From Coprothermobacterota bacterium (GTDB lineage Bacteria; Caldisericota; JANLFM01), in NCBI GenBank assembly GCA_026389455.1, contig JAPLHV010000019.1, forward strand, positions 1 to 33,901: a DNA stretch of 33,901 bases. The letters are read 5' to 3'. A program made the translations under genes and the position numbers. Under the pieces are notes generated by a model. The model was not told the DNA's origin. It saw only the letters and a program-made list of their open reading frames with translations, and searched no databases. This document shows, in pieces, positions 7,458 through 33,901 of this stretch. Position 1 is the first letter of the stretch. The number at the start of each line of letters is the position of its first letter.

Positions 7458-8672
7458 TTATTCTCGCGAACCCTTCCCTTCCTCGGGCGGCTTTAGTGAC
7501 CGGTTTCGGGATTCACCAAGACGGAAGAGGCTAGCACGTGATACCGTCCCTTCCCCATATTTCCCCCGGATCAGGTCGAGGGCGCGAGAAAGAGAAGCCT
7601 GTTGGGATTCACGAAAGCTGGGGAAGGTCACCGAATCGCCGCTTCGGCTCAAATGGGAGAGGCTTACTCCCAGCAATCGGACGCGCTTCGGACAACCCTT
7701 CTGGAAGAGGGCTCGCACCACACGGAAGAGGTCATCGTCACTGTCGATGGACTGTTTCAAGGTCTGCGCCCGGGTGGTGGTTTGAAAGTTGGGGTCACGG
7801 AGTTTGATCGTCACCCGGCTGGTCCGCCAGCCCTCCACCCGCATCTGGTGAGCCAGGGTGTCACTGATCTCCAGCAGCGCTTTGAGCATCTCGGCCGGGT
7901 CGGAAAGGTCCTCAGCGAAGGTGCCCTCCGAACCCATCGACTTACGGTCACAATCCGGTACCACCGGACGTGGATCAATCCCTTGGGCGTAAAGGAGAAG
8001 ATCCTGGCCTAACTTGCCGAACTCCACCCGTAGGAAAGCGGGGGGCAGAGCGAGGAGATCGCGCACAGTCCGTAGTCCTGACTGGGCCAGTTTTTCCCGG
8101 GTGCGGAATCCCACCCCCGGCAGCTCCCCCAGGGGAAGCTGGTGGAGAAAGCCCAGGGTGTCCTCCTCCAGGATGGAGATAAAGCCATGCGGTTTCTGCC
8201 AGCCGGAAGCAATCTTGGCCAGGAACTTATTGGTGGAGAGGCCCACCGAACAAGAAAGGCCAACCTCTTCCTGGATGCGGTCTTGAATGGCGTGGCCGAT
8301 TTCTTCCGCTGTCCCGAAGAGATGGAGGGAACCCGTCACATCCAGGTAGGCCTCATCGAAGCCCATCGACTCCACCAGAGGCGTGTACTCCTCCAGGATG
8401 CGGTGAAAGGCGCGCGAAGCCTCGGCATAGCGATTCATCCGCACGGGCAGGAAAATCGCCTGGGGGCAGAGCTGCTTGGCCTGCCAGAGGGGCATGGCTG
8501 AATGCACCCCGAAAGCCCGGGCAGGGTAGCTGGCTGCCGAGACCACCCCTCGCTTGGTGTTGTGCCCCCCTACAATGACCGGTTTACCCCGCAGGCTGGG
8601 ATCGTCCAGCTCTTCTACCGAGGCGAAGAAAGCATCCATATCCGCATGCAGGATGCGTCGCTTAGGGGACAT
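7458..8672 (-). CDS. dinB: DNA polymerase IV (Y family)
   Basis: ILHADMDAFFASVEELDDPSLRGKPVIVGG, SMGFDEAYLDVTGS, GLSTNKFLAKIAS. Confidence 0.93.
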   Translation of the reverse strand: MSPKRRILHADMDAFFASVEELDDPSLRGKPVIVGGHNTKRGVVSAASYPARAFGVHSAMPLWQAKQLCPQAIFLPVRMNRYAEASRAFHRILEEYTPLVESMGFDEAYLDVTGSLHLFGTAEEIGHAIQDRIQEEVGLSCSVGLSTNKFLAKIASGWQKPHGFISILEEDTLGFLHQLPLGELPGVGFRTREKLAQSGLRTVRDLLALPPAFLRVEFGKLGQDLLLYAQGIDPRPVVPDCDRKSMGSEGTFAEDLSDPAEMLKALLEISDTLAHQMRVEGWRTSRVTIKLRDPNFQTTTRAQTLKQSIDSDDDLFRVVRALFQKGCPKRVRLLGVSLSHLSRSGDSVTFPSFRESQQASLSRALDLIRGKYGEGTVSRASLFRLGESRNRSLKPPEEGKGSRE

Positions 8673-8679
8673 CGTTCAC

Positions 8680-11600
8680 TTACCTTACACCCATTTTCTC
8701 GGGGACGGCTACTCTAGCCATCGCAGAAAGGCGCAAACCGTCCGGGAGAGGTTCTCGTCCGCCCTCTTCCGGCGGGTTCCAGGGGGTCAGCTCGCGAAGC
8801 ACAAACTCGCGCGCGCCCTGGCGCTCGACCACCTCCCCCTCCAGCAGGAGGATGGAGCGCGCCCGCAGGCGCAAGGCGAAACGCCGTGCCTCGGCGGGAA
8901 GGAGCACGGCCTCCCATTGCCCGGCCAGATCGAAGAGGCAGAGAAAGGCCATCCGCTCGCCCCCCCTGGTTTTTTCCAGGCGATAGTGGACCAGGATGGC
9001 TGCCGCTTTGAGGGTCGAGCCGGGCTTCAACTGGCGCAGGCGGGCGCCCCCCTCCGGGGAGTAGGGGGCCAAGGCGGCGCGATGCAAAGCGAGGGGGTTG
9101 GGCAAGTAGATCTCGGTGGCCTGCCAGGAGAGGCTCGCTTCCTCGGACGGGCTGAAAGGTTCCAGATGGAAATCTGGCCCTTCCTCGGGTGGGGCGAAGA
9201 GGGAGCCCTTGTCCCGGGCTAAACGGATGGCGCGCGACAACCGGGCCAAGAGGGTGGGACGGTTGAAGCCCAAGCAGTCCAAGGCCCCTCCCTGGATAAG
9301 AGCCGCCAAGGCCCCGCGGTCGACCAGCGGGTAGAGGCGCAGGCAGAGATCCTCCAGGTTGGTGAAGCCTCCTGGCGGACGCAGTCGCAAGATCTCGCCG
9401 ATTTGAGCTGGGCCGAGATCTTTCAAATAAGCCAGGCCCAAGCGAATCCCCCCGCTTTCCTTCCGCATTCCTCTCTCTTCCATGGGCGCCGTTGAGGGTA
9501 GCTGGGGACAGGCGCTCTCCAGGGTGCAGGCTGCCTGGCTGCGGTTGATGTCCGGCGCCAAAACCGAGATCCCGGACAGCACAGCCTCTTGGGTATAGAC
9601 GAAGGGAGGATAGTAGCCCATCTGAGTGGAGAGGAGCACGGCGAAGAAGTGCGCCGGGTAATGCCGCTTGAGCCAGGCGTTACGGTAGGCGACGATGGCG
9701 TAACTGGCGCTGTGGGCTTTGTTGAAACCGTAACCGGCAAATTTCTCCAGCAAGGTGAAAGCCTCGTGGGCAACTCCTTCTTCCACGCCCCGCTCGTGCG
9801 CTCCCTCCAGGAAGCGAGGCTGGAGGAGGCGGATGGCCTCGGCATCCTTCTCCCCCATGGCTTTGCGCAGAATGTCGGCTTCTCCCAGGGTCAAGCCGCC
9901 AAGTTGGCGAGCCACTTGCATAACCTGTTCCTGGTAGAGGACGACGCCATAGGTCTCCTGGAGGATCGGCTGCAGCAGAGGGTGCAGGTAGCGAACGGCC
10001 TCCTCGCCCCGGTGACGGCGGACGAAGGGCTGCATCATCCCTCCCTGGAGAGGCCCGGGGCGATAGAGGGAAAGGGCAGCGGCCAGCTCTCCCAAGGAGT
10101 GCGGCTGAATCTTCATCAACAAAGAGCGCAAGCCGCTGCTCTCCAGTTGAAAGACGCCCAGCGTGCGCCCTTGGGCGATCATCTCCCAGGTGTCGGCGTC
10201 GTCGATGGGGATCTCCCCGGCTTTGCTTACTCGCACCAAGGTTGTTCCAGCCGGGGTATCGAAACCGGCCCTCTTCAGCGTCTCCTCAATGATGGCCAGG
10301 CTGCGGGAGCCGAGAAAATCCATCTTCAGAAAACCTAGAGCAGCCAAGGTGTGCATATCGTATTGGGTGACGACTCCCTCCGGGGTGACGGCTAGGGGCA
10401 GTTCCTGCCGCACCGCCCCCCGGCTGATGACGAATCCGCAAGGATGGGTGGTAAGGTGGTGGAGCCGGCCCACCAGTCGTTGCGCCAGCGCCAGCCAGGA
10501 GCGGGCCTCCTCGCTGCGGGCCTGACCCTGCTGAGCCTCCCGCTGGAATTGGTTGATCTCCTGTTTCCCCTTGCCCAGGACTTTGCCTACCTCCCGCAAG
10601 GCGCCCTGCAGGCGAAAGGTAGCGAAGCCGCCGACGTGGACGATACGCTCGGCCCCGTACTTGGCGCGAACGTAGTCCATCAGTTCCTCACGGCGATCCC
10701 AGTCAATATCCAGGTCGATATCCGGGGGGTCTTGGCCGCGCTCCGGGTTGAGGAAGCGCTCGAAGAGGAGCCCCTCGGCGAGGGGATCCACCCAGGTGAT
10801 GTGCAGCAGGTAGGAGACGATGCTGGAGGCGGCCGAGCCGCGCCCGAAGACGGCGATCCCCCGGCGTTGGGCTTCCTCCACCAGATCCCAAACGAGGAGG
10901 AAGTAACCGGCGTAGCCGAGTCGTTCGATCCAGCCCAATTCATCTTCCAAACGCCGGCATGCGTCAGGCCGCTCTCCTGGGTACTTGTCCGGGAGGCGAC
11001 GGCAGCAGATTTGCCGCAACAGTCCGACTTCCTCTTGGGGGCTGCGGCCGGCGTGGGGCAGGCGCAGTGAGAAGGGCGGGAAACGGAAGCGCAGGCTTTC
11101 AGCCAGCTCCAAGGTATGACGCAGGGCCTGCGGACAGGAGGCAAAGGCTAGTGTCATCTCGACCGCCGGGCGCAGGCAGCAGTTGCTGCCGCTGCGCTTG
11201 GCCGGGTGAGGTTCACCACGCCGGGTGAGGGTGCGGATGCAGCAGACAATCTCATAGAGGGGCTGGTCGGCCGGCTCCAGAAAATGCACGTCGTTGGCCA
11301 CCAGGGCGGGCACAGCCAATCTCTTGCCAAGGTTCAGCAGGCGGCGTACGCGAGACGCTTCTCCTTGCTCGCCGTGCCAGGATAGCTCCAGGTGCAAGCG
11401 TGGGCCGAAGGCCTGTCGCGCCTCGCCCAAAAGCGCCCGGGCTTCTCCCTCTCTCTCCGGCGACAAGAGCGAAGCCAAGATGCTCTCGCCCTGGCCGAGG
11501 AGCAAGTGCAACCCCCCGGCGTCAGCCAGCGCCTTCTGCCAGGGAACTTGGGGAGGCAGACCGATTGGTCCCTCCAGATGGGCTGCATTGAGCAAGCCCA

Positions 11601-11895
11601 GCAAGTGGGAGTAACCGATCTCGTCTTCCACCAAAAGAAGGGCTGTGCGGGGGAAGCGCTCCGGCTCGCCGCGAAAGCAGGAGAGCTCTACTCCCAATAG
11701 GGGACGTATCTCGTAGTGGGGGGCCAGTCGAAAGAACTCCACCGCACGGGCCAGTGAATCCCGGTCGGTCAGAGCCAGGGTCTTCATCCCCAGTGTCTGG
11801 GCCTTGGCCAGTAAAGCCTCCGGCGTGACGGTGGAGTCGAGAAAACTGCCGTCGGAGTGGACGTGCAAGTGAACAAAATCCATCGGTCTCTCCAT
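8680..11895 (-). CDS. DNA polymerase III alpha subunit, DnaE family (probably SOS-associated)
   Basis: PHP domain start FVHLHVHSDGSFLDS; FGRGSAASSIVSYLLHIT, PPDIDLDIDWDRREE, GYGFNKAHSASYAIVAYRNAWLK; 8 nt upstream of dinB and divergent from lexA. Confidence 0.92.
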   Translation of the reverse strand: MERPMDFVHLHVHSDGSFLDSTVTPEALLAKAQTLGMKTLALTDRDSLARAVEFFRLAPHYEIRPLLGVELSCFRGEPERFPRTALLLVEDEIGYSHLLGLLNAAHLEGPIGLPPQVPWQKALADAGGLHLLLGQGESILASLLSPEREGEARALLGEARQAFGPRLHLELSWHGEQGEASRVRRLLNLGKRLAVPALVANDVHFLEPADQPLYEIVCCIRTLTRRGEPHPAKRSGSNCCLRPAVEMTLAFASCPQALRHTLELAESLRFRFPPFSLRLPHAGRSPQEEVGLLRQICCRRLPDKYPGERPDACRRLEDELGWIERLGYAGYFLLVWDLVEEAQRRGIAVFGRGSAASSIVSYLLHITWVDPLAEGLLFERFLNPERGQDPPDIDLDIDWDRREELMDYVRAKYGAERIVHVGGFATFRLQGALREVGKVLGKGKQEINQFQREAQQGQARSEEARSWLALAQRLVGRLHHLTTHPCGFVISRGAVRQELPLAVTPEGVVTQYDMHTLAALGFLKMDFLGSRSLAIIEETLKRAGFDTPAGTTLVRVSKAGEIPIDDADTWEMIAQGRTLGVFQLESSGLRSLLMKIQPHSLGELAAALSLYRPGPLQGGMMQPFVRRHRGEEAVRYLHPLLQPILQETYGVVLYQEQVMQVARQLGGLTLGEADILRKAMGEKDAEAIRLLQPRFLEGAHERGVEEGVAHEAFTLLEKFAGYGFNKAHSASYAIVAYRNAWLKRHYPAHFFAVLLSTQMGYYPPFVYTQEAVLSGISVLAPDINRSQAACTLESACPQLPSTAPMEERGMRKESGGIRLGLAYLKDLGPAQIGEILRLRPPGGFTNLEDLCLRLYPLVDRGALAALIQGGALDCLGFNRPTLLARLSRAIRLARDKGSLFAPPEEGPDFHLEPFSPSEEASLSWQATEIYLPNPLALHRAALAPYSPEGGARLRQLKPGSTLKAAAILVHYRLEKTRGGERMAFLCLFDLAGQWEAVLLPAEARRFALRLRARSILLLEGEVVERQGAREFVLRELTPWNPPEEGGREPLPDGLRLSAMARVAVPEKMGVR

Positions 11896-11914
11896 TCAAA
11901 GTGCCATTTTCGCT

Positions 11915-11943
11915 AGTATTGAACTAATGTTTACATTTGTCAA
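11915..11943 (-). promoter_or_regulatory. dnaE-dinB promoter TTGACA-17-AATACT with a LexA-box-like GAACTAATGTTT (11921..11932) in the spacer
   Basis: -35 at 11938..11943, -10 at 11915..11920; near-palindrome matches GAAC-N4-GTTC except for the last base. Confidence 0.7.
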
Positions 11944-11981
11944 GAGGAAACACCCCGATCGATGAAAAAATATTTCCTTTT

Positions 11982-12001
11982 GAACGAACATTCGCTATAC
12001 T
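11982..12001 (+). promoter_or_regulatory. lexA promoter region: LexA-box-like GAACGAACATTC (11982..11993) next to -10 TATACT (11996..12001)
   Basis: GAAC-N4-RTTY pattern shared with 11921..11932; -10 ends 6 nt before the lexA ATG; -35 weak (TTTCCT at 11973..11978). Confidence 0.6.
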
Positions 12002-12007
12002 ACCGAC

Positions 12008-12607
12008 ATGCGACTAAAAAAAGAGCTATCCCCAAGCCAAAAAAAGATCTACGACTACCTGAAAGAACGCGCCCAACAGGGCAAGACTCCGCCGACCGTC
12101 CGCGAGATTGCTGCTGCAGTCGGCTCCCCTGGACCTTCTTCGGTGCAATATCAGTTAGTGAGTTTGGAGAAGAAGGGTTTCCTGAAACGTTCCCCGCTGC
12201 ACTCACGTTCCATGGAGGTGATCGGGTTGCCGCCCATCGCCAGGCAAGCGCCGATTGTTGGGCGGGTTCGAGCCGGGCTCCCCAATGCCGCCGAAGAGGA
12301 GATCGTCGGGCATTTCCCTATTCCCGATTTCTTCAAGGAGAAGGATTGCTTTGTGTTGGAAGTGAAAGGCGACTCGATGACCGGGGCCGGCATCCAAGCC
12401 GGAGACTATGTAGTGGTTGAGCGCCGCAGCGAGGCTGCCAACGGGGAGTTGGTAGTGGCTCTTATCGGTGAGGAAGCTACCCTCAAGCGGTTGCGGAAAT
12501 CCGGGGGAAAAGTGGCGCTGGAGGCAGCCAACCCGAAGTACACAGACATTGAGCCGGAACAACTGCAAATATTAGGAAAGGTTGTGGGCCTCTTCCGGAC
12601 CCTTTAG
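12008..12607 (+). CDS. lexA: LexA repressor
   Basis: N-terminal wHTH PPTVREIAAAVGSPGPSSVQYQLVSLEKKG; cleavage Ala-Gly (RVRAGLP); Ser in KGDSM; Lys in EATLKRL. Confidence 0.95.
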   Translation: MRLKKELSPSQKKIYDYLKERAQQGKTPPTVREIAAAVGSPGPSSVQYQLVSLEKKGFLKRSPLHSRSMEVIGLPPIARQAPIVGRVRAGLPNAAEEEIVGHFPIPDFFKEKDCFVLEVKGDSMTGAGIQAGDYVVVERRSEAANGELVVALIGEEATLKRLRKSGGKVALEAANPKYTDIEPEQLQILGKVVGLFRTL

Positions 12608-16372: not shown

Positions 16373-16399
16373 CTTGAAGCCTCTTAACGAGAAATTCTC

Positions 16400-16799
16400 G
16401 GGTTCCTTTTCATTTCAAGTGGGCATCCTACCAGCCTGCGGCTAGACAGCCCCCGGCAGGGTGTTCTGTGACATGCTGCCGCAGGCTGTTTAGTCCAGCT
16501 TCCCTGAAATCATGGCAATGATGATCTTGAAGAGTCTTGTCGGCCCTGGGACCGCGGCGCCCCAGTGCATTCCTGGGTGTTGCGTTCCCAAGAAAACCGA
16601 TGGTCCCAGGAAAGCCGACGATCGCAGGAGCTGTCACAGGGGGAGTTATCCTCCTTTGTTTTTGAGGTCGCATCGACCACGATATGGTTTACGAGGACTA
16701 TCGAGCTGCCGGGGGCAAGATTATTGTCGTCTGCCTTGATAATCCCAAAGACTTTGTTTGCCTCAGACTGCCTTACTCACTCAGTTTGAGAAAGAGCCA
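16400..16799 (+). repeat. MITE-like intergenic element, copy 2
   Basis: gggttccttttcatttcaagtgggca... stem cagcctgcggc (16432..16442) / gccgcaggctg (16478..16488), 35-nt loop; ends tcactcagtttgagaaag. Confidence 0.85.
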
Positions 16800-17313: not shown

Positions 17314-17435
17314 ATTTCCCTCCTCATTCATTATTCTGCCATTGTAGCAAGGTTTTAATGATTTGTGCGCGGTCAGGCGCATTTTCGAGAAGCTGTCTGG
17401 CTCCTGGCCTACCTAATACCTAAGCTAAAAATGCC

Positions 17436-17878
17436 GGGTTCCTTTTCATTTCAAGTGGGCAGCCTACTAGCCTGCGGCTAGACAGCCCCCGGCAGGGTGT
17501 TCTGTGACATGCTGCCGCAGGCTGTTCAGTCCAGCTTCCCCGTAATCATGGCGATGAGGGTCGTAATGAGTCTAGTCGGTTCCAGGAAAGCCGACGATCA
17601 CAGTCTCAGGGACGGTCTCAGGGGGGGTCAGGCCCAGTTAGTTTTCGTCACTTCACTGCAGATGCCGCACTGGGGCGCCACGGTCACAGGAAAGCCGACG
17701 ATCGCAGGAGCGGTCACAGGGGGAGTTATCCTCCTTTTTTTGAGGTCTTATCAACCACGATATGGTTTACGAGGGCTATCGAGCTGCCGCGGGCTAGATT
17801 ATTGTCGTCAGCCTTGATGATCCTAGAGACCTTGTTTGCCCTCAGACTGCCTTACTCACTCAGTTTAAGAAAGGGCCT
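17436..17878 (+). repeat. MITE-like intergenic element, copy 3
   Basis: gggttccttttcatttcaagtgggca... stem agcctgcggc (17469..17478) / gccgcaggct (17514..17523), 35-nt loop; ends tcactcagtttaagaaag. Confidence 0.85.
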
Positions 17879-17964
17879 TAAAAAAAGCCGCAACGTGGGA
17901 GGAAAGGGTAGGGGAGTGAAGCGGACCGTGAGATAATAAGACAACCCGATAAGGAGGTGTATGC

Positions 17965-20199: not shown

Positions 20200-20445
20200 A
20201 TGGACACGGAAGAGATCTTCCAGCGAGTCCAAGAGACGATCGTCGATCAGTTGGCAGTGGAACCAGAGGAAGTGACCCTGTCGGCTTCCTTCTTCGACGA
20301 TCTAAACGCTGACCCTGAATACATGCTGGAATTCGCTGAAGCGGTGGAAGATGTATTTGGCATTCGCATCCCCGACGAGGAGCTGGAAAATCTGGAGACC
20401 GTCGGAGACGCAGTGAGGGCTATTCAAGATCGCCTGGAAGAGTAA
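20200..20445 (+). CDS. Acyl carrier protein-like protein lacking the phosphopantetheine Ser
   Basis: ACP fold pattern MDTEEIFQRVQETIVDQLAVEPEEVTLSASFFDDLNADPEYMLEFAEAVEDVFGIRIPDEELENLETVGDAV; DSL motif replaced by DPE. Confidence 0.85.
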   Translation: MDTEEIFQRVQETIVDQLAVEPEEVTLSASFFDDLNADPEYMLEFAEAVEDVFGIRIPDEELENLETVGDAVRAIQDRLEE

Positions 20446-20464
20446 CGCACATCCGCTTTTTCGG

Positions 20465-21124
20465 ATTCGTAACAAAAAGCTGCTTCAAGAGGCGCTGACC
20501 CATTCCTCTTACCTCAATGAGGATCCCAGCAGTACGTGTTGGGAGCGGCTGGAATTCCTCGGGGATGCCGTCTTGGAGCTGGCCATCTCCGAGGCTCTCT
20601 TCGCTCTCTACCCGGAAAGCCAAGAGGGTTACCTGACCCAGCGCCGTGCGGCCATGGTCAACCAGACCTCTTTGGCTGTCAAGGCACGCGAGATCGAGAT
20701 TGGACTGATGATCTATATGGGCAAAGGGGAGGACAAAAACGGGGGCCGAAATAAAGACTCCATCCTTGCCGATGCGCTTGAAGCTCTTATTGGCGCTTAC
20801 TTTCTAGATCGCGGTTACCTCAAGAGCAAAGGAATGATCCTGAAGCTTTTCAAGGTGGAGATGGAGAGCATGCATGCCCCGCCCCTCGATTTCAAGAGCA
20901 TGCTGCAGGAGTATGCCCAGCGGAACACCGACCAAATTCCCACCTATAAGGTAGCCGAGGAGAAAGGGACCGCCCACGCCCGGATTTTCATGGTGCGGGT
21001 CAGCTTGGCCGGTTTCCAGGCAGCCAAGGGCGCCGGAACCTCGAAGAAAGTAGCTGAACAGAACGCCGCCCATGCTTTCTTGGAGAAGAACAAGCTTTCC
21101 TCCGACGAGATGCTGCGGAAGTGA
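20465..21124 (+). CDS. rnc: Ribonuclease III (start uncertain; listed ORF begins at 20573)
   Basis: RNKKLLQEALTHSSYLNED, WERLEFLGDAVLE, SILADALEALIGA, C-terminal dsRBD; no ATG/GTG/TTG in frame between the TGA at 20414 and 20573. Confidence 0.88.
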   Translation: MRNKKLLQEALTHSSYLNEDPSSTCWERLEFLGDAVLELAISEALFALYPESQEGYLTQRRAAMVNQTSLAVKAREIEIGLMIYMGKGEDKNGGRNKDSILADALEALIGAYFLDRGYLKSKGMILKLFKVEMESMHAPPLDFKSMLQEYAQRNTDQIPTYKVAEEKGTAHARIFMVRVSLAGFQAAKGAGTSKKVAEQNAAHAFLEKNKLSSDEMLRK

Positions 21125-21956
21125 GTTGGTTCAGCAAGGTCAAGGAAAGCCTCGGCGCTCTTTTCCAGCGCAAGGGCGGACTGCGCGAGGAGGACTGGGA
21201 AAGCCTCCAGTTGCTCTTGCTGGAAGGCGACTTGGGTCCGGTCCTGACTGAGCAGATTCTGGAAGGGTTGCGCAAAGCCCTGCCCAGGAGCGCCACTCTG
21301 GAGGAAACGATGGCGGAGCTGCGCGCCACATTGCGAGTTGTGATCCCCCCCTCCATACCGCTCCAGGTATCGGTTCAAGTTCCTTCCGTCTATCTCTTCA
21401 CTGGCGTGAACGGCGCCGGCAAAACCACCAGTATCGCTAAGTTGGCTGCCGATTTGAAGGGGAAAGGCTTGCGCAGCCTGCTGGTGGGCGGGGATACTTT
21501 CCGCGCCGCGGCCGGAGAGCAGCTCAACATCTGGGCCCAACGGCTGGGGTTGCCTTTCATCGGCCACGAGATGGGCGGGGATCCTTCGGCGGTAGTCTTC
21601 GATGCCATGGAGATGGCCGCCACGGGCGCCAACAGACTAAGCACAATTTGATGGAAGAACTGAAGAAAATACGCCGCACGGTAACGCGCAAGAAGGCCGA
21701 TGCCCCCGACGAGGTCTTCCTTACCCTGGACGCCAACTCCGGCCTCAATGCCCTCTCCCAAGCAGATTCTTTTCATCGGGTGATGGGACTGACCGGCCTC
21801 ATCTTGACCAAGTTCGACTCGCCGGCCCGCGCCGGCTTTCTCTTTCCTATCCTGCAACAGTTGGCTATCCCGATAAAATACGTGGGAACTGGGGAGAAAG
21901 TGGGAGATTGGCAGACTTTTGACCCGGAGGGCTTCCTCGATAAGTTCCTGGCTTAA
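21121..21956 (+). pseudogene. ftsY: SRP receptor FtsY, split by an internal deletion/frameshift
   Basis: FTGVNGAGKTTSIAKLA, GGDTFRAAAGEQL...GGDPSAVVFDAMEMAATGAN, then frame change to TKHNLMEELKKI...LTKFDSPARAG; DTAGR region absent at about 21634. Confidence 0.85.
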
Positions 21957-22016
21957 CCCTCACTTTGGCGTGGACAGGCTCCTCTGCGGTGGGTTGCCCC
22001 GAATGGTCAACTGCAT

Positions 22017-22033
22017 AGCCCCCGGCAGGGTGT
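22017..22033 (+). repeat. Core fragment (agcccccggcagggtgt) of the MITE-like element between ftsY and ylxM
   Basis: 17-nt exact match to the loop core of the elements at 1383..1760, 16400..16799 and 17436..17878. Confidence 0.6.
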
Positions 22034-22076
22034 CCCTATTTGACAGGATCACCCCGTTAAGTAAAAATACTTGGCA

Positions 22077-22400
22077 ATGTTGGAAGAACGGATTCATCTA
22101 GGACGCCTTTTCCGTCAGTACGCCCCTCTCTTGACCGATCGACAGCGCTGCGTGTTGGGGCGCTACTTGGAGGGAGATCTCTCCTTGGCCGAGATCGGGG
22201 AGAGCCTCTCGATCAGCCGCCAAGGAGTGTACGACTTGGTGAGACGCGCTTCTGGAACATTAGAGCGCTGGGAGGAGCGGCTGAGCTTCTGTTGGCAATT
22301 GGAAGAGGTGAGCCGGCGCCTCAGTCCTGTCCTGGCCGACTCGACAGTCTTACTCTCTGCCGAAGATCGAACGTTCGTGGAGGAGTTCCTCGGTGTTTGA
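22077..22400 (+). CDS. YlxM-like HTH protein
   Basis: LLTDRQRCVLGRYLEGDLSLAEIGESLSISRQGVYDLVRRA, directly upstream of ffh. Confidence 0.88.
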   Translation: MLEERIHLGRLFRQYAPLLTDRQRCVLGRYLEGDLSLAEIGESLSISRQGVYDLVRRASGTLERWEERLSFCWQLEEVSRRLSPVLADSTVLLSAEDRTFVEEFLGV

Positions 22401-23694
22401 AAATCTAACCAATAAATTTCAGGACATCTTTCGCAAGTTGACTGGGAAGGGCAAGCTGAGCGAGGCCGACGTTGACCAAGCGTTAAAAGAGTTGCGCATG
22501 GCCCTCCTCTCTGCGGACGTGCATATCAGTGTGGTGAAAGCATTCTCCGAACGGATACGAGCCAAAGCTGTCTCCCAAGAGATCCTGGCCAGTCTGACCC
22601 CCGGACAGCAGGTAATTAAGGTTGTGCGCGACGAGATGGCCGAGATACTGGGTCTCGATCAACCTGCCTTCAACCTGGCCATGCCGACGGCCTGGATGAT
22701 GGTCGGTCTGCAAGGATCGGGGAAGACCACCACCTGCGCCAAATTGGCCCGCCTCTATCAGAAACGCGGCAAACATGTCCTCCTGGTGGGGCTGGACCTC
22801 AAGCGCCCAGCAGCCATGGACCAGCTCCGCATTCTGGCCGAGCAAGAGCGCATCGCATGTTTCGCGCAACCGGGGAACAGCATCCAAGAGATCCTTAAGC
22901 AGGCGCAAAGCCTCTTTTTTTCCAAGCAATACGACTTGGCCATCCTGGATACGGCCGGTCGCTTGCACATCGATGATGAACTAATGGGCGAGCTGGTGGA
23001 AGTGAAAAAGGTCTTCCAACCCAAGGAGACCACTCTCGTTTTAGACTCCACCACCGGCCATGTCGCAGTGGGAGTAGCCCAGGAGTTCCAGCGCTGGGTG
23101 GACTACAACTCGGTAATCCTCACCAAGATGGACGGCGACGCCCGTGGCGGCGCTGCCTTGTCCTGCAAGTATGTCACCGGCAAGCCGATCCGTTTCATCG
23201 GAGTGGGGGAGAAGATCGAAGACCTGGAACCTTTCTACCCGGACCGCATGGCGCAGCGAATCCTGGGCATGGGAGATGTGATGACCCTGATCGACCGGTC
23301 TCTTAAAGCTTTTTCGGTAGGGGAGCAGGAAAAGCTGGAGAAACGGCTGCTGAAGGACAAGTTGAACCTCAGCGACTTTCTGGAACAGATGCAAGGGTTG
23401 GGGCGGATGGGCAGCCTGGAGGGCCTTCTCCCCTCGATGCCTGGGATGCCCTCTCTGGCCGGCGCCCAACTGGATACCAAACAGTTGAAGCGTTGGGAGG
23501 CGATCATCCTCAGCATGACCTCGCAGGAGCGCGTTTTCCCGGAGATCATCAATTCCAGCCGAAAGAAGCGCATCGCCAAAGGCTCCGGCACAACAGTGCA
23601 AGACGTCAATATCCTGCTCAAGCGTTTTGATCAATTTAAGATGATGACCAAGCAAGTGAAGCGGGGGGTCTTCCCACGTTTCGGAAAAATCTAA
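22393..23694 (+). CDS. ffh: Signal recognition particle protein Ffh
   Basis: GLQGSGKTTTCAKLA, DLKRPAAMDQL, DTAGRLHIDDELM, TKMDGDARGGAAL, Met-rich M domain. Confidence 0.96.
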   Translation: MFENLTNKFQDIFRKLTGKGKLSEADVDQALKELRMALLSADVHISVVKAFSERIRAKAVSQEILASLTPGQQVIKVVRDEMAEILGLDQPAFNLAMPTAWMMVGLQGSGKTTTCAKLARLYQKRGKHVLLVGLDLKRPAAMDQLRILAEQERIACFAQPGNSIQEILKQAQSLFFSKQYDLAILDTAGRLHIDDELMGELVEVKKVFQPKETTLVLDSTTGHVAVGVAQEFQRWVDYNSVILTKMDGDARGGAALSCKYVTGKPIRFIGVGEKIEDLEPFYPDRMAQRILGMGDVMTLIDRSLKAFSVGEQEKLEKRLLKDKLNLSDFLEQMQGLGRMGSLEGLLPSMPGMPSLAGAQLDTKQLKRWEAIILSMTSQERVFPEIINSSRKKRIAKGSGTTVQDVNILLKRFDQFKMMTKQVKRGVFPRFGKI

Positions 23695-32559: not shown

Positions 32560-32903
32560 GGGAGCTTCATGATGGCAACATGGAGGCGTTGCGCGACCGG
32601 GCTCTGAAGTTCCGCCGGTCATCTCTCTCCAGGATAGAGTTGTACGCTGAGGCAGGAAGCAGGAGAGCTTGCGGGTGAGCGTGAATCGAGAGAACTTTGT
32701 AGGCCGATGGTCTTAGCGGCGGTTATAGACCGGCAATCAGAGCTTGGCTAACGTACGACTAGCGCTTAAGTATGCCGTGCGATCAGCAACCAGCCAGGGA
32801 ATTAGACATGTCAGTTCAGACACCAGCACAGCGTATCGTGAGGCTAAGTTGACAATTGAACAACGTCCCTGAAAGGTTCCCTGTCATCTTGAGCCCCCTT
32901 TTT

Positions 32904-32988
32904 ATCATCTTGAGCGAAGAGAAAGATCTCGCCTTTGCGGTTTTGGTTTCAAAACGAGCTCCAGATGCTTCACTGCGTTCAGATGCTG
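32904..32988. repeat. Degenerate palindromic (REP-like) repeat
   Basis: atcatcttgagcgaagagaaagatctcg (32904..32931) imperfectly inverted at cagatgcttcactgcgttcagatgctg (32962..32988); extra gtcatcttgagc at 32883. Confidence 0.55.
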
Positions 32989-33901
32989 TATGCCATGTCA
33001 AGTCCCCTGACCTCATCATCGACCTCCACTTCCCCGACCATTCGAGACAGGTCAGCCAAGGCAGTTCTCTCAGGAGTCCCATGAAAGGGCCGCTTGGTAC
33101 GATAAATGGCATGGGCTTGGCGCAGGAGTTTGCGAGCCACAGCTACCTGGGCCACTTTCTTCGGCTTCCCGGCGGCCACTAAGCGCTGCTTGAAAGCAGC
33201 CAAGGGTTCGTTCAGTCGACCAGCTGTCAATGAGGCCAGGAAGAAGGTCCGGCGAGCCATGGCATCCCCGTTCTTGCTGATCCGCTTGGGCTTGTTCAAC
33301 GAACTCCCGGACTGACGCTCACGGGGGTCCAATCCCACCAGAGCGACCATCTGTTGGGAGTTGGCCTCTGGGTAGGTCAGTTCCAGGTAGAGCAAGACGA
33401 TAGCCGTCAGCGGTCCCACCCCGGGGATGGTCTGCAGGAGCTGGTAATCCTGGCACAACTGCTCTTCCTCCAAGACGAACTGGACCATCTCCCCAAGCAA
33501 CCGCTTCTCTTGATCATGGAGCCTCTCAGCCAGTTCGCCGATCGGTCTTCAGGGCATGATGCTGGTTGCTGAACTGAACCCTGCTCTTCTGCACCAGCTG
33601 ATAAGCCGCCAGGTAGCGTTGGAGGGTTTCCCGGGCCAGATCGTGGACCGGAACCCGGCAGTCTTCCTCTTTCAGCAGTACCTGGAAGGCGGTGAGCATG
33701 CGGGCATCGATGGGATCGTTCTTGGAGCGCTGCCCGAGGGCCTGACGGAAGTGATGTCCTCGTTTGGGGGGAATGATGTGGCAACGGATCTGTCTTCTGG
33801 CGCAGAGACTGACCAGTTCCCAGGAGTAGGGGCCGGTCGGTTCAAAGATCAAGGCCACTTCCTGGAAGCCCTGGGGGTGCTTTCTCTCCAGGAAGGCGGT
33901 A
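32979..33901 (-). mobile_element. IS110-family transposase, frameshifted, N-terminus beyond window end
   Basis: C-terminal part LQTIPGVGPLTAIVLLYLEL...MVALVGLDPRERQSGSSLNKPKRISKNGDAMARRTFFLA; N-terminal part TAFLERKHPQGFQEVALIFEPTGPYSWELV...SKNDPIDARML; frame changes near 33540..33546. Confidence 0.9.

Follow-up and report, generated by a model that had tools for sequence, protein, structure and literature searches.

A 34-nt deletion splits the ftsY gene of one draft genome

FtsY, the SRP receptor, takes part in membrane-protein targeting; cells normally cannot do without it, and together with Ffh it builds a single composite GTPase site. The SRP itself is said to be conserved across all life (PMC7844537). 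An ftsY gene that is broken in its middle, next to an intact ffh, raises the question of whether the break is a natural change in the organism, a trait of its lineage, or a product of the way in which the sequence was obtained. Such a locus was analysed in the window, i.e., the whole 33,901-nt stretch of DNA under study, which is contig C163 of G000, a draft genome of 2.63 Mb (263 contigs, 89% complete, 1.4% contaminated). The sequence does contain a split ftsY; the split is recent and has to date been met in this one genome only, and it amounts to either an ordinary null allele or an artefact rather than to a receptor of a new kind.

The ftsY locus and its deletion

The genes around ftsY are arranged in the order rnc-ftsY-ylxM-ffh-rpsP (Table 1), which also occurs in G006, and the conserved neighbourhood rnc-ftsY-ylxM-ffh by which FtsY can be recognised is therewith present in the window. 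The ftsY gene (21121-21956) is split by one clean 34-nt deletion and the accompanying frameshift; the internal deletion with frameshift that had been proposed from the letters of this stretch alone was borne out by the alignment to the same-genus genome G001, as well as by profile matches in two frames.

Table 1. Coordinates of the ftsY fragments, the deletion junction, and the neighbouring genes in the window
Feature	Position	Strand	Description
rnc (RNase III)	20441..21124	+	Open to the N-terminus; no ATG/GTG/TTG before 20573, likewise in G001
ftsY 5' fragment	21121..21651	+	176 aa; N domain, G1, G2; out of frame after 21622, stop at 21651
Deletion junction	21622..21623	+	34 nt of G001 absent between these bases; breakpoints share no bases
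ftsY 3' fragment	21624..21956	+	Shifted frame, GRQQTKHNLMEE...; G4 (TKFD) and G5; mechanical ORF from TTG at 21648
ylxM	22071..22400	+	Intact
ffh	22393..23694	+	Intact FtsY partner

Profile searches placed the 5' fragment at positions 3-158 of the 279 positions of TIGR00064 (E 1.1e-34), with further matches to PF02881 and to positions 1-80 of PF00448. This fragment holds the helical bundle of the N domain (PF02881; residues 9-54, E 1.7e-7), a P-loop of the GxNGxGKTT type (G1, GVNGAGKTTS), and the G2 motif DTFRAAA. The 3' fragment (second frame, from 21624) covers TIGR00064 positions 171-278, with a match at 179-278 of E 6.3e-31, and its TKFD exists in the shifted frame and not in the frame of G1. 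The two pieces score 120.0 and 107.7 bits against the curated TIGR00064 cut-off of 260.7, each less than half of it, versus 269.4 bits for the intact partial protein of G001.

Coverage of ftsY by the G001 sequence begins at window position 21327, so that the initial 206 bases of the gene lack a counterpart, and within this covered part the 34-nt gap is the only one inside the gene. The sequence that is absent from the window is SKGFDAVLVDTA, which includes the DTA of the G3 motif and is read in G001 as the 12 codons S-K-G-F-D-A-V-L-V-D-T-A; G001 continues unbroken across the site (MEMAASKGFDAVLVDTAGRQQTKHNLMEE). The loss is thereby slightly larger than the approximately 31 nt that were originally estimated, and the loss of DTAGR holds in part, as DTA is deleted and GR survives in the second frame (HGRQQTKHN). 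Slippage between direct repeats was rejected as the cause, because a nearby 9-nt repeat in G001 (TTCGATGCC, 33-nt spacing) would leave a different junction, and no hairpin explains the breakpoints (z 0.44). Since the breakpoints share no bases on which an assembler could have based an overlap, we infer that the junction was present in actual DNA, be it a natural allele carried by part or all of the population or a chimeric library fragment.

The partner gene ffh is intact, as had been noted, and exceeds its NCBIfam cut-off (526.8 versus 473.2 bits), and an intact SRP RNA is encoded on contig C33 of G000. The missing middle of ftsY is not supplied anywhere else in the 89%-complete G000 assembly, nor was a second ftsY, which had been put forward as a way to reconcile the lesion with essentiality, found in it.

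Several other observations were made in the window. The rnc frame is open and homologous in 20441-20573, upstream of the first ATG/GTG/TTG; translation must therefore begin at a rare codon, an in-frame ATT being one candidate. The corresponding stretch of G001, with a single-base difference, has no usual start either. An N-truncated rnc as a second lesion was rejected, as the frame is open from 20441 without a gap to G001, and homology to G002 reaches the N-terminus. Likewise, the loss of smc beside ftsY was rejected as a local anomaly, since rnc and ftsY adjoin in G006 as well. Interspersed repeats at 16390-16620, 17430-17880, and 32570-33060 are about 70-99% identical to other sites, with 131 matches in G000 and 92 in G001 for a 19.9-kb query, and probably represent a high-copy, mostly non-coding repeat family of the genus. 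The region 32979-33900 on the - strand presumably encodes an IS110-like transposase, which is split between two frames near 33500, at the contig end. Finally, a lexA-like gene lies beside genes for DnaE-type and DinB-type polymerases at 7458-12607 (assigned by eye), which by eye resembles an SOS mutagenesis-like cluster.

Constraint on ftsY among relatives

The ftsY stretch of G000 is 96-99% identical to that of G001 on both sides of the gap. The dN/dS between these genomes is 0.05 for ftsY (12 synonymous and 2 non-synonymous differences in 204 codons), which is as low as that of ffh (0.075). The downstream residues that had been taken as a sign of relaxed constraint, NSGLNA and TKFDSPARAG, are present in the window as described, but the intact FtsY of G001 has exactly the same residues, and the intact FtsY proteins of G002, G003, and G004, which belong to the same family, have the close variants NAGLNA or NAGMNA and KFDSPA[KR]AG. 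Relaxed constraint was rejected on the strength of these lineage-typical residues and the dN/dS of 0.05. One of the two amino-acid changes is an E to G substitution in GEKVEDW, at a mostly acidic position among the aligned relatives; it could be a first sign of decay, and is too little to claim decay.

Because G001 is intact, the motifs are common to the relatives, and dN/dS is low, the break in ftsY is recent and genome-specific. The gene is single-copy in the relatives searched. The suggestion of an SRP receptor that is unusual in this lineage is not upheld, as the same-genus G001 has ftsY whole in the part that it covers, and this intact ORF essentially contradicts the change as a lineage trait. 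The window's ftsY is thus not an old pseudogene, not a gene under relaxed constraint, and not a novel receptor.

Separately, the rnc-ftsY stretch (20381-22050) is 96-99% identical to G001 where comparable, and the flanking genes are mostly 86-96% identical; this hints at a possible recombined or slowly evolving tract.

Explanations of the split gene

The locus shares with known FtsY (TIGR00064; PDB 1FTS, 1RJ9, and 1VMA) the N domain, G1, G2, G4, G5, and the position between rnc and ylxM-ffh, and chains of E. coli FtsY align over 209 residues to the homologue in G001, which is intact (E about 1e-61). Unlike known FtsY, the window has lost 12 codons, including the DTA of G3, and its frame is shifted. 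We favour, at somewhat better than even, the explanation that a recent, single, out-of-frame deletion of 34 nt, known in one draft genome, has struck an otherwise conserved single-copy ftsY. As written, the gene would be a null allele of the SRP receptor. The deletion takes out the beta-strand and most of G3 (DTAGR) and shifts the frame. Its products would be a 176-aa stub with N, G1, and G2 and, at most, a fragment of 102 aa with G4 and G5, and neither of them could form the GTPase site shared with Ffh; because this site is a composite of the two proteins, neither piece should work.

The strongest competitor, which we consider a serious possibility although short of even, is a pure assembly or library artefact, in which ftsY is intact in the organism and the 34 nt were dropped during contig building or in a chimeric read; it overlaps with the favoured deletion, which also allows a chimeric fragment. 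The normal essentiality of FtsY, the intact ffh and SRP RNA, the purifying selection on the rest of ftsY, and the draft state of G000 with its 263 contigs all speak for an artefact, and the G001 assembly also breaks nearby, between 20603 and 21327. Against it stands the junction, which has neither overlap nor repeat to drive a false join, and the lack of overlap argues in particular against a simple overlap-driven one. Moreover, in approximately 60 kb of contig alignments between G000 and G001, comprising about 130 ORF comparisons, ftsY was the single recognisable conserved gene in which a large frame-breaking gap was seen; further ORFs were flagged without individual annotation, and several of these overlap real genes on the opposite strand. 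The 1-nt gaps in trmD and lepB relative to G001 are near-compensating pairs. Sequencing noise was rejected as the cause, since no comparable large frame-breaking deletion was seen in recognisable conserved genes of the stretches aligned to G001, and the assembly is for the same reason not generally error-ridden.

A real inactivation would have precedents to the extent that laboratory E. coli survives SRP loss when it carries translation-initiation suppressors, and that S. mutans and yeast reportedly also live without SRP (PMC7844537). A real null allele is therefore not impossible. If the window allele is real, its carrier would be SRP-defective like SRP-null E. coli (ffh deletion with suppressors) and S. 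mutans, with the difference that the E. coli work removes ffh in laboratory strains (PMC7844537) and in the window only ftsY is struck. It is conceivable, although we judge it unlikely, that the SRP receptor was recently inactivated in a wild population, with a pathway loss in progress and ffh and SRP RNA still intact, in a phylum of which a sister clade of three families appears to have lost the entire SRP pathway already.

We regard as equally doubtful a real loss of the SRP receptor that is fixed in the population and tolerated since the SRP route is dispensable in the phylum. Besides the survivable losses elsewhere, such a fixed loss is in line with the absence of a second ftsY from the assembly, and with three families of the same phylum in which ffh, ftsY, and SRP RNA are not detectable. 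However, ffh, SRP RNA, and the remaining ftsY of G000 are without decay, the window's family sits in the SRP-bearing part of the tree, and FtsY is kept in G001, G002, G003, and G004. The full-looking constraint on Ffh, together with the normal essentiality of FtsY, argues against a fixed null allele.

A functional ftsY, duplicated or acquired, could be missing from the 89%-complete assembly and reside in the unassembled approximately 11% of the genome; this is improbable, as a duplicate is not expected given that the gene is single-copy in the relatives searched. Least credible by far is an FtsY that functions despite lacking the DTA of G3, in two pieces or through frameshift rescue, for although both fragments are open and conserved in sequence, recoding cannot restore 12 missing codons, a core strand is lost from the fold, and the arrangement is absent from all aligned relatives.

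Sister families without detectable SRP

The set without detectable SRP comprises 11 genomes (69-97% complete) of three families, namely f3 (G009, G015, G021, G026, and G053), f6 (G020, G023, G040, G051, and G052), and f7 (G029), represented by loci L116-L123, L236, and L240-L246. Ffh (TIGR00959, a profile that detects FtsY as well in the rest of the phylum) had no match in any of the 11 genomes. With TIGR00064, neither FtsY nor Ffh was convincingly matched in the eight genomes tested, G029 having one weak, chance-level match, and PF00448 gave nothing above its cut-off in eight tested genomes of these families. SRP RNA was found neither with RF00169 (eight genomes tested) nor with RF01854 (all 11). 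As controls, SecY was found in 8 of 8 genomes tested, YidC in 10 of 11 (missed in G021), and TrmD in 8 of 11, the remaining three being 69-75% complete; since these proteins were recovered in nearly all genomes tested, the searches work in this set.

The rpsP-trmD region is assembled in these genomes. The neighbours of rpsP there are different ones, namely an enolase-like gene on its upstream side in f3 and an unrelated gene in opposite orientation in f6. In G040 and G051 of f6, plsX-rnc is followed by another gene at the usual ftsY site, without Ns, and tblastn gave no significant match to ftsY remnants at this site in the two genomes. In a tree of SecY, TrmD, and YidC, a branch with support 95/96 sets f3, f6, and f7 apart, and a single loss is thus enough; the window's family (f1) lies on the other side and keeps SRP. 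The missing hits in two genomes of family f2, G028 and G035, were not counted as further losses, because contig ends fall on or close to the site of ffh or ftsY in both. G028 even retains the beginning of ftsY at the end of a contig, and it gave a weak match to SRP RNA.

If the SRP receptor of G000 is truly inactivated by a natural null allele, this would be striking, but the case rests on one draft genome. A natural loss of the whole SRP pathway is probable for f3, f6, and f7, and these sister families are more interesting than the split ftsY and deserve a study of their own. Full-text searches of open-licence papers turned up no account of bacteria that have lost SRP naturally, which is weak evidence of novelty; to our knowledge, the three-family clade would be the first natural bacterial loss of the pathway. 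If its SRP-less state is true, membrane-protein targeting without SRP becomes directly testable.
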